From Rhodovulum strictum (GTDB lineage: Bacteria > Pseudomonadota > Alphaproteobacteria > Rhodobacterales > Rhodobacteraceae), in contig NZ_WJPO01000006.1 of assembly GCF_009649175.1 (NCBI RefSeq), positions 62,001 through 126,000 on the forward strand: a stretch of DNA of 64,000 nt, given 5' to 3'. The notes under the pieces were generated by a model that made no database searches, was not told the origin of the DNA, and was given only the letters and a program-made list of their open reading frames with translations. A program made the translations under genes and the position numbers. Below are positions 17,784 through 20,019 of the stretch, piece after piece (position 1 is the stretch's first letter; every line of letters begins with the position of its first letter).

Positions 17784-19427
17784 CTAGACCAGCCGCGACA
17801 CCTCGACCGCGGCGCGCACGAAATCGGCGAACAGGGGATGCGGGGCGAAGGGTTTGGATTTCAGTTCGGGGTGGAACTGCACGCCGATGAACCAGGGGTG
17901 ATCCTTCCACTCGACGATCTCGGGCAGGCGGCCATCGGGGGACATTCCCGAAAAGACCAGCCCGCAGGCCTCAAGCTGGTCGCGATACTTGATGTCCACC
18001 TCGTAGCGGTGGCGGTGGCGTTCCTCGATCACGGTGGCGCCGTAGATCCCGGCCACTTTCGAGCCTGCGGCCAGATGGGCGGTATAGCTGCCCAGCCGCA
18101 TCGTGCCGCCCTTGGCGTCATCGGCCTTGCGGGTGACGGTGGCATTGCCCTGCACCCATTCCTTGAGGTGATAGACGACGGGCGTGAACCGCTTGCGGCC
18201 CGCCTCGTGGTCGAACTCCTCGGAGCCCGCATCGGCCAGTTGCGCGACATTGCGCGCCGCCTCGATCACCGCCATCTGCATGCCCAGACAGATCCCCAGA
18301 TAGGGGATCCGGCGGGTGCGGGCGAATTGCGCGGCCTTGATCTTGCCCTCGGTCCCGCGTTCGCCGAACCCCCCGGGCACGAGGATCGCGTGGAAGCCTT
18401 CGAGCCAGGGCGAGGGGTCCTCGCGCTCGAAGATCTCGGCGTCGATCCATTCGGCCTTGACGCGCACCCGGTTGGCCATGCCGCCATGGGTCAGCGCCTC
18501 GGCGATGGATTTGTAGGCATCCTCAAGCTGGGTGTATTTCCCGACAATGGCCACCCGCACCTCGCCCTCGGCGTTGAAGATGCGGTCCGACACATCCTCC
18601 CATTTGGTCAGGTCGGGCTTCGGCGCCGGGCTGATCTGAAAGGCATCCAGAACCGCCTGGTCCAGCCCTTCGCGGTGATAGGCCAGCGGCGCCTCGTAGA
18701 TCGACTTCAGATCCTGCGCGGCGATCACGGCGTCGGGGCGGACATTGCAGAACAGCGCCAGCTTGGCGCGTTCCTTTTCCGGGATCGGCCCTTCGGAGCG
18801 GCAGACCAGAACATCGGGCGCAATGCCGATCGAGCGCAGTTCCTTGACCGAATGCTGGGTCGGCTTGGTCTTCAGCTCGCCCGAGGCGCGGATATAGGGC
18901 AGCAGCGTCAGATGCATGAAGATGCATTGCCCGCGCGGCTTGTCCTGACTGAACTGGCGGATCGCCTCGAAGAAGGGCAGCCCCTCGATATCGCCCACCG
19001 TGCCGCCGATCTCGCACAGCATGAAATCGACCTCGTCCTCGCAGATGGAGATGAAGTCCTTGATCTCGTTGGTGACATGCGGGATCACCTGGATCGTCTT
19101 GCCCAGATAGTCGCCCCGGCGTTCCTTTTCCAGCACGTTGGAATAGATGCGGCCCGACGAGATCGAGTCGGTCGCGCGCGCCGAAACGCCGGTGAAGCGT
19201 TCGTAATGGCCCAGATCCAGATCGGTCTCGGCACCATCATCGGTGACGAAGACCTCGCCATGCTCGAACGGGCTCATCGTGCCGGGATCGACATTCAGGT
19301 AGGGGTCCAGCTTCCTGAGCCGGACGGTGAAGCCGCGCGCCTGCAACAGCGCCCCCAGGGCCGCCGAGGCCAACCCCTTGCCCAGAGACGAGACCACGCC
19401 GCCCGTGATGAAGATGAATCGTGCCAT
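17784..19427 (-). CDS. pyrG: CTP synthase
   Basis: Glutamine-dependent amination of UTP to CTP; 547 residues, cytoplasmic tetramer. The N-terminal synthase domain begins [21 protein letters not shown] with its nucleotide loop. The C-terminal class I glutaminase domain has the nucleophile in GICLGMQ and the His/Glu pair in QFHPE. Full length. The mRNA leader is unusual: a promoter (19504-19532) is followed by a leader of about 70 bases whose 5' end pairs with the Shine-Dalgarno region, suggesting control by nucleotide levels. The SD is a G-run (19441-19437) nine bases before the ATG. Confidence 0.97.
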
Positions 19428-19438
19428 AGGCTGGCGCC

Positions 19439-19497
19439 CCCGTGATGTTGCTGTCTCGACCGTCCGATTCGGCGCTCGGGCGCCGCAGTATCACGGG
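19439..19497 (-). promoter_or_regulatory. pyrG leader hairpin occluding the Shine-Dalgarno region
   Basis: In the mRNA sense, CCCGTGAT (19497-19490) pairs perfectly with ATCACGGG (19446-19439). After a 2x2 internal loop, TGC (19487-19485) pairs with GCA (19451-19449), and a small hairpin (19484-19471, GGCGC / GCGCC) sits in the loop. The 3' arm covers three of the five G of the SD. The predicted transcript begins in T-C-C-C-G exactly at the 5' arm, so a start at C keeps the full stem while a start at G would lose its outer pairs. This is the layout known from enterobacterial pyrC and pyrD. Alternatively, if transcription began upstream, TCTCGAC (19460-19454 in sense GTCGAGA) could pair with 19505-19499 to form a pseudoknot. 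Confidence 0.55.
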
Positions 19498-19503
19498 AGT
19501 CGA

Positions 19504-19532
19504 GATATAGCGGATTCGGTGCGTGGCCGCAA
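19504..19532 (-). promoter_or_regulatory. Predicted pyrG promoter
   Basis: Reading leftward, -35 TTGCGG (19532-19527), exactly 17 bases, -10 TATATC (19509-19504). The expected start, 6-10 bases beyond, falls on T19498, C19497, C19496, C19495 and G19494. Confidence 0.6.
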
Positions 19533-19635
19533 CCGGACCGCTAGATACTGTTAAGGATTATGATTACGCCTCAATCCCTTGTGGGACAGATGCTGCGGCT
19601 GCGGCACGGCGCTGAACCGGCCGCGCCTGAAGGGC

Positions 19636-20019
19636 CTAATCCGCGCGGGGCGGCAGCAAGGGCGTGGCACCGCCGGGCGTGACGGGCGGCGGCGGCAGCA
19701 GATCGTCGCCCCCGGGCAGGCCCGGCGCGACGGTTTCAGGCGTGGCTTCCTGGACCGGAGCCGAAGAACCGCGGATGCGGTCAACCACCGAGGTTCCGGC
19801 GGCATTCTGCGCGGCAAGGATTGTCAGGGTGATCGAGGTGCCGATGAAGCAGATGGCAAAGAACCATGTCAGCTTGCCGAGCGGCGTGGAGGGCGTGCGG
19901 CCGGTGATCGCGCCGCCGCCTCCCATTCCGAGGCCACCCCCTTCGTTCCTTTGCAGTAGCACGATGCCGATCAGGCAAAGCGCCAGGATCAGGTGGACGA
20001 TGAGGATGACATTTTCCAT
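19636..20019 (-). CDS. secG: Preprotein translocase subunit SecG
   Basis: A 127-residue inner-membrane component of SecYEG. Two transmembrane helices (about residues 3-22 and 50-70) flank the conserved [16 protein letters not shown] turn. The C-terminal tail is proline/glycine-rich and variable, as in other alphaproteobacteria. It lies upstream of pyrG on the same strand with about 208 bases between them, which hold the pyrG promoter and leader. Confidence 0.95.

Follow-up and report, generated by a model that had tools for sequence, protein, structure and literature searches.

A conserved pyrG leader in Rhodobacteraceae as a probable CTP-sensing transcription start-site switch

The leader of pyrG in Rhodovulum strictum probably acts as a start-site switch that senses CTP at transcription initiation and controls translation, in a manner similar to that of pyrC and pyrD in enterobacteria; we estimate the probability of this reading to be about 0.7. 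CTP synthase converts UTP to CTP in the last step of the pathway, and the leader of its gene combines a start region rich in C with a first transcribed segment complementary to the Shine-Dalgarno (SD) region.

Promoter and leader of pyrG in the window

The window, that is, the whole stretch of DNA that was analysed (64,000 nucleotides), covers positions 62,001-126,000 of the forward strand of contig NZ_WJPO01000006.1 in assembly GCF_009649175.1 of R. strictum (Rhodobacteraceae). The pyrimidine gene directly behind the leader is an open reading frame at 17784-19427 that we recognized as, and take to be, pyrG. The frame upstream of it, presumably secG, ends with its stop at 19636. The features of the locus, with their occurrence in the family leaders described below, are as follows.

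19527-19532, minus strand: -35 element TTGCGG; in the profile of 132 leaders, positions -35 to -31 were T in 127, T in 120, G in 125, C in 103 and G in 72
19513-19517, minus strand: GANTC site within the spacer, reading GAATC (-20 to -16); GANTC at the same offset in 123/164 leaders
19504-19509, minus strand: -10 element TATATC; TA at -12 from the first C in 135/164 leaders, and in 126/151 with the single-CCCGT anchor
19494-19498, minus strand: T-CCC-G start-site region; T in 113, C in 131, C in 132, C in 131 and G in 132 of the 132-leader profile
19490-19497, minus strand: 5' arm CCCGTGAT, the proposed first transcribed bases; at least six contiguous pairs from exactly +1 in 158/164 leaders
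19447-19489, minus strand: region between the arms, with neither length nor structure conserved; 27-87 nt between the 8-base arms (158 leaders)
19439-19446, minus strand: 3' arm ATCACGGG, overlapping the SD; exact complement of CCCGTGAT
19437-19441, minus strand: SD run GGGGG; 11-15 nt from arm end to start codon in 104/130 leaders
17784-19427, minus strand: presumed pyrG (CTP synthase, 547 aa), with ATG at 19427; first 126 aa matched in 158/159 family genomes

The preliminary description of this locus had given the -35 and -10 elements, the T-CCC-G start, both arms and the SD, and all of these letters and coordinates were found in the window, including the spacer of 17 bases between TTGCGG and TATATC. 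Counted from the end of the -10 element, the usual start at position 7 falls on C19497, preceded by T19498 at position 6, and the first purine is G19494 at position 10. The two arms are 51 bases apart from start to start, with 43 bases in between, and the 3' arm takes in three of the five G of the SD. A generic promoter scan, which requires T at the end of the -10 element, made no call at the pyrG promoter. No terminator-like site was found in 19300-19800. A search of the window against Rfam yielded only a tRNA, and that of 19380-19640 only snoU61 with an E-value of 0.45, below the gathering threshold.

On the basis of this arrangement, the following mechanism is proposed. RNA polymerase would meet only T, C, C and C at positions 6 to 9 after the -10 element, and the first purine, G, at position 10. 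When CTP is plentiful, transcription would start at the first C, and the 5' end CCCGUG would pair with CACGGG; the resultant helix would hide the SD, and little CTP synthase would be made. When CTP is low, the starts would shift to the G, producing an RNA that lacks the three C. In this RNA the helix would be too weak to hold, and pyrG would be translated. From the sequence we infer that CTP is sensed, where the 5' ends lie, that they move with CTP and that translation is affected. The start bases reported for Sinorhizobium meliloti were A in 47.9%, G in 23.6%, T in 14.8% and C in 13.7%, C being the rarest (PMC3616915, in excerpt).

A second GANTC overlaps the start in the window (19501-19497), and GANTC was found at that offset in 30/130 leaders. 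In Caulobacter, GcrA is described as working together with sigma70 at promoters whose GANTC is methylated (PMC7987155, in excerpt). Since a GANTC site lies in the promoter spacer and GcrA has this role in Caulobacter, pyrG may, by analogy, be under cell-cycle control as well, through CcrM and GcrA.

Conservation of the start region and of the pairing in Rhodobacteraceae

We collected 166 pyrG leaders from 16 genomes of the same genus and from one genome for each of 150 other Rhodobacteraceae genera (151 genera in all), drawing on the pyrG matches listed (159 genomes searched, 158 matched). CCCGT was present at the aligned place in 164 of the 166 leaders. The exceptions were L123 and L128, the latter of which keeps TCCGTGAT after a -10-like stretch but lacks CGGG in the 45 bases that precede the start codon. 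With the first C taken as +1, a profile of 132 leaders showed TTGCG at -35, GAATC at -20, TA at -12 and T at -1 (113/132), followed by C, C, C, G, T and G at +1 to +6 in 131, 132, 131, 132, 131 and 128 leaders, respectively; three leaders (L048, L106 and L115) fitted the promoter profile poorly. Pyrimidines including C at the normal start, with a purine just downstream, as in the pyrC/pyrD type, are thus found both in the window and in the 132-leader profile. The profile had been refined on its own anchors, and the spacing test was therefore repeated with CCCGT as the only anchor in the 151 leaders that contain it once. The TA was again found at -12 in most leaders (126/151, compared with 135/164 over all leaders), and it was elsewhere in 29/164. 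No C occurred within +4 to +9 in 140/164 leaders, i.e. the first six bases of an RNA started at the G would be free of C.

A leader-blind collection of named loci, described in the last section, contained 20 Rhodobacteraceae loci, sorted by title and overlapping with the 166-leader set. Among these matches listed, CCCGT was present in the leader in 20/20 and at least six pairs from the first C in 18/20 (10/10 and 8/10; the other two had 5 and 4 pairs). Loci titled Rhodobacteraceae bacterium, Roseovarius, Marivita and Rubrimonas, among the matches listed, also carry the element.

The nearly constant GTG at +4 to +6 could be read as the start of a short leader frame that controls pyrG by coupling. 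Its frame relative to pyrG, however, was distributed as 57/56/51 over the 164 leaders, and the stops were scattered or absent. A leader peptide starting from this GTG was rejected on these grounds, and we give the coupling explanation hardly any credence.

The family leaders also have a weaker conserved stretch just upstream of the -35 element, at about -59 to -36. Its majority sequence reads C-A-A-C-A at around -56 to -52 and T-T-G-C-G-G at around -46 to -41, often forming an imperfect inverted repeat by eye. This stretch is possibly the site of a regulator.

We then analysed the pairing between the first transcribed bases and the SD region. The partner site was required to end no more than 32 bases upstream of the start codon, and 40 rounds of dinucleotide shuffling served as the control. 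At least six contiguous pairs starting exactly at +1 were formed in 158/164 leaders, whereas the shuffled leaders did so in 22.1 cases on average and in 32 at most. Loss of the pairing among close relatives, which would have spoken against the preliminary description, was thus not what we observed. Given the predicted start at +1, the 5' end of the RNA would accordingly be complementary to the SD region in these 158 leaders. When the beginning of the arm was displaced, the count was 154 at -1, 129 at +2, 73 at +3 and 13 at +4 (of 164). In the window, another copy of ATCACGGG occurs within the pyrG coding sequence (19409-19402), where it arises from the codons of a conserved ITG motif. It was kept in only 21/164 family genes and was therefore rejected as the partner of the 5' arm; the conserved partner is the copy in the leader.

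The distance between the 8-base arms varied from 27 to 87 nt in the 158 leaders, while the TA mostly stayed at -12. The 5' arm is therefore tied to the start point and not to the SD alone. Because the pairs begin at the first C, the TA is at -12 and the arm distance is free, the start point, the 5' arm and the SD are coupled. A sensor of the start point whose read-out is at the SD requires just this: a constant spacing from the promoter and an unconstrained one from the SD. The anatomy of the leader, its conservation and the link between the -10 element and the 5' arm are direct observations.

It is worth considering a different interpretation, in which the hairpin is a fixed brake on the SD that responds to a small RNA, a protein or temperature instead of CTP, the start point being immobile. 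The conserved pairing and its overlap with the SD agree with such a brake. A fixed brake, however, requires neither a constant distance from the -10 element to the arm nor pyrimidines at the start position, and both are conserved. We consider this interpretation unlikely.

The arm distances clustered near 43 and 54 nt, which differ by roughly one turn of the helix, and tailed off up to 87 nt. This clustering could come from shared descent or from an extra turn of the stem. It also bears on the possibility that the inverted repeat is the DNA site of a dimeric regulator with one half over the start point, since CCCGTGAT and ATCACGGG also form an inverted repeat in the DNA itself. The spread of distances was less smooth than in the jittered control, in which 0/2000 reached the resonance observed outside the main cluster at periods of 10 to 11.5, and we raised our estimate for a DNA site slightly because of the clustering. 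On the other hand, the distances range from 27 to 87 nt, and the resonance at periods of 12 to 15 is as strong as or stronger than that at 10.5, so that there is no clean phasing; furthermore, the 3' half overlaps the SD. In the genome, the repeat alone was found 3 times, one of them at pyrG, compared with 10 times for the reversed control. There is therefore no visible regulon, and the bare repeat is unremarkable without its promoter context. A DNA site seems highly improbable to us.

Covariation, folding and comparison with known systems

The consensus structure of 101 leaders calculated with RNAalifold contained the six-pair outer helix only. A conserved inner hairpin, absent from this consensus, was rejected, and the stretch between the arms did not align across leaders. 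Of the stem in the preliminary description, the outer helix was conserved in the family, whereas its extension by TGC/GCA was not.

Covariation was examined in 163/164 leaders with the 3' arm anchored solely by the last CGGG before the start codon; the shuffles used for comparison ignore relatedness. Positions +1 to +4 were invariably C-G, C-G, C-G and G-C. Position +5 was T, opposite A in 135 leaders, opposite G in 22 and unpaired in 6. Position +6 was paired in 157/163, a value reached by 85/2000 shuffles, and +7 was paired in 129/163, which none of the 2000 shuffles reached (mean 120.7, maximum 127). Pairing at +8 and +9 was at the chance level. RNAalifold (101 leaders) found no pair with both sides changed, the covariation term being -0.11. 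One leader, L025, has both sides changed at +6, +7 and +8 (arms CCCGTAGA/TCTGCGGG), and another, L091, is a single case of compensatory change (arms CCCGTGTT/AACACGGG).

Since the helix core is nearly unvarying, compensatory change is significant at +7 only. With pairing nearly universal and compensatory changes few, the proof by covariation is thin, and since +1 to +4 never vary while +8 is at chance, the letters could be held by something else. The comparison among relatives proposed in the preliminary description thus came out largely in its favour: the CCC start and the pairing are kept across the family and +7 covaries, but strong compensatory change was not found. The near-invariance of CCCGTG exceeds what pairing needs, and it could mean that a protein or an RNA reads the sequence, as would suit the fixed brake. 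For the start-site switch, the double duties as C start in the 5' arm and as SD in the 3' arm could explain the invariance of the arms. The T kept at +5 even opposite G fits a helix that must stay weak so as to be lost once the C residues are missing.

The leader in the window (88 nt) had a minimum free energy of -34.6 kcal/mol in a fold that includes the helix, compared with a mean of -28.6 kcal/mol for shuffled sequences (z -1.9; 8/200 as good). After 30 coding bases were added, the helix stayed and the whole fold was no better than the shuffles (z 0.1). For the 125 leaders with at least six pairs, the mean duplex energies for starts at +1 to +5 were -13.2, -10.0, -6.7, -4.7 and -1.0 kcal/mol, and the mean probability that the GGG is unpaired was 0.03, 0.20, 0.29 and 0.34 for starts at +1 to +4. 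On going from a start at C1 to one at G4, the GGG opened by more than 0.3 in 66/125 leaders and by 0.3 or less in 59/125. For the window, the probability that the GGGGG is unpaired rose from 0.25 with the C start to 0.41 with the G start; the SD is predicted to open only partly because another hairpin involving it forms in the short RNA. The same calculation for pyrC of Escherichia coli gave 0.12 (T1), 0.27 (C2), 0.35 (C3) and 0.24 (G4). The start-site switch of E. coli pyrC is an established mechanism. Since its values also move little, the folding calculation is a poor discriminator.

Enterobacterial pyrC and pyrD are reportedly regulated by start-site switching. Their E. coli leaders read TTATCCTTTGTGTCCGGC...GCCGGAG and TAATACGCCCCCGG...CCGGG, respectively. 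As in these two leaders, the start region of the Rhodobacteraceae pyrG leader is rich in C and lies shortly past the -10 element (assigned by eye in E. coli), with a purine next; the first transcribed bases likewise form the 5' arm of a hairpin, the inverted repeat lies at or near the SD, and the gene belongs to pyrimidine synthesis. The reading of the leader as being of the pyrC/pyrD type, put forward in the preliminary description, gains support from this likeness in anatomy and from the CCC start, the pairing and the TA spacing kept in the family. The differences are the gene, pyrG, the bacterial class and the leaderless-type form proposed below for the rest of that class; moreover, the arms are 27-87 nt apart in Rhodobacteraceae pyrG compared with 15 nt in E. 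coli pyrC.

In Bacillus, pyrG is controlled by attenuation through CTP-sensitive reiterative transcription, with a start at a run of G and a terminator in the leader. The gene, CTP as the signal and sensing by the first transcribed bases would be common to both systems, whereas the Rhodobacteraceae leader has a C-run start, no terminator-like site and no Rfam match. E. coli codBA and upp use UTP and slippage, and are not known to have an SD hairpin. Their start-site switching is sensitive to UTP (PMC5730371, in excerpt), and the choice of start thus depends on a pyrimidine nucleotide, as it would in the pyrG leader.

Slippage also offers an account of the Rhodobacteraceae leader in which no choice of start is involved: the polymerase would slip on CCC, and the extra C would lengthen the helix formed with the run of G in the SD. 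The nearly invariant CCC at the start is in keeping with this account, as is an SD run longer than the arm requires (GGGGG in the window). Outside the family, however, two C also occur (a run of two in 15/41 loci among the matches listed). We regard slippage as very unlikely.

No paper on pyrG start sites in alphaproteobacteria was found in the literature searched, which was mostly open-licence and without supplementary tables; the word pyrG occurs 0 times in the main texts of PMC3616915, PMC4117421, PMC5756330, PMC7987155 and PMC8632094. The hairpin form at pyrG would be a variation on the known pyrC/pyrD principle, and the leaderless form described in the next section would, if confirmed, be a new read-out.

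Other pyrimidine genes were also inspected. In the 13/14 carA leaders of the same genus that were parsed (among L357-L370), inspection by eye showed a conserved block resembling a promoter, a GGAG-like SD and, where transcription would be expected to start, a purine; there was no C-run start. Positions 7-8, counted from a -10 element also assigned by eye, were GA in 12 of these leaders and AA in 1. As carA looks like an ordinary purine start, regulon-wide use of the switch was rejected for this gene. For pyrD in the R. strictum genome, no leader was evident; the open frame extends well upstream of the likely start.

The start region of pyrG outside Rhodobacteraceae

Named loci were obtained by scanning genome contigs for the start of pyrG alone, blind to the leader, which gave at least 119 stretches. 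The 119 listed were sorted by title into 61 from alphaproteobacteria outside the family, 20 from Rhodobacteraceae, 29 from gammaproteobacteria and 9 from other or unstated classes; the 61 alphaproteobacterial loci include close relatives such as Pelagibacteraceae. The hairpin leader of the Rhodobacteraceae type was not found outside the family in these loci. The start region there had instead the form TAnnnn-N5-[T/C]CC(C)-ATG, with a similar pyrimidine start placed right at the pyrG start codon, a feature that the preliminary description had not noted. Among the first 80 listed, [T/C]CC stood directly before ATG in 41/41 alphaproteobacteria and in 5/23 gammaproteobacteria. The other 39, read after the pattern was known, gave 17/20 (the misses being L289, L308 and L320) and 1/6, for totals among the matches listed of 58/61 and 6/29, respectively; for the other or unstated classes the figure among the matches listed was 5/9 (2/6 and 3/3). 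All nine Pelagibacteraceae among the matches listed had TCC-ATG, the region upstream of which is 15% C.

For the 41 alphaproteobacterial loci among the matches listed, TA was found at -14 in 14/15 of those with two C before ATG, and at -15 in 19/26 and at -14 in 7 of those with three or more. The distance of the TA is therefore mostly fixed to the first C and not to ATG. TA was at -12 of the first or second C in 17/17 of the later alphaproteobacterial loci among the matches listed, and none of the seven gammaproteobacteria with CC among them has TA there.

A second set was composed of one genome per family. Of 61 matching families, 52 were read (seven were not fetched and two not parsed), with start codons picked by a script and, in two cases, by hand. 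[T/C]CC-ATG was found in 31/52 families, compared with a background of 4.7% per position, and 25 of these 31 had TA at -12 of the first or second C. By eye, the 21 families without [T/C]CC-ATG include several AT-rich genomes and genes with other starts. The retention of a [T/C]CC start outside the family, where the hairpin leader is absent, is a further point against the fixed brake.

Positions 6-8 after the -10 element outside the family were mostly T/C, C and C, and the purine that followed was in most cases the A of ATG, at position 9 or, after three C, at position 10. Since the first purine is usually this A, the sequences suggest a CTP-dependent choice between a leaderless AUG mRNA and a CC(C)AUG mRNA. 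When CTP is plentiful, the C at positions 7 and 8 would be used to give CC(C)AUG mRNA; when CTP is scarce, transcription would start at the A of the start codon to give leaderless AUG mRNA. In Rhodobacteraceae, the read-out would be the hiding of the SD in the hairpin by the C start. It is conceivable, at somewhat less than an even chance in our judgement, that pyrG senses CTP through start choice with these two read-outs in most Alphaproteobacteria.

Leaderless messages are known from the class: 375 leaderless mRNAs were counted in Caulobacter (PMC4117421, in excerpt) and 171 leaderless start sites in S. meliloti (PMC3616915, in excerpt). In Caulobacter, leaderless and leadered mRNAs were translated about equally well (PMC4117421, in excerpt), which counts against easy optimism about a leaderless switch. 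According to a review, ribosome binding in leaderless initiation is inhibited by a 5' UTR (PMC9031893, in excerpt). If two or three additional bases are enough, control of pyrG by the choice between CC(C)AUG and AUG would have the correct sign. Among the open-licence papers searched, we found none describing a leaderless mRNA whose switching depends on one to three nucleotides at its 5' end.

Rhodobacteraceae and the other alphaproteobacteria have a common geometry, namely T at -35, TA at -12, T at -1 and C at +1 and +2. This common geometry suggests, speculatively, one ancestral start region with two read-outs, and CCC-GTG of Rhodobacteraceae may, as a further speculation, have descended from CCC-ATG. 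If the proposal were true across much of the class, the CTP synthase gene would be under a repressor-free feedback loop through start-site choice, and the arrangement from promoter to start codon seen from Pelagibacteraceae to Rhizobium would be explained. The leaderless form, if true, would show that leaderless mRNAs can be regulated gene by gene. The excerpted part of a review of leaderless translation describes such gene-by-gene regulation as open and riboswitches upstream of the coding sequence as thought unlikely (PMC9031893).

A conserved T-rich stretch was observed before pyrG in Halomonadaceae (L211, L213, L222, L245 and L276) and Pseudomonas (L208, L231, L252, L262 and L264). It takes forms such as GACAGGTTTTCC-ATG, TAGGGTTTTTC-ATG and similar ones, and it may be another nucleotide-sensitive start.
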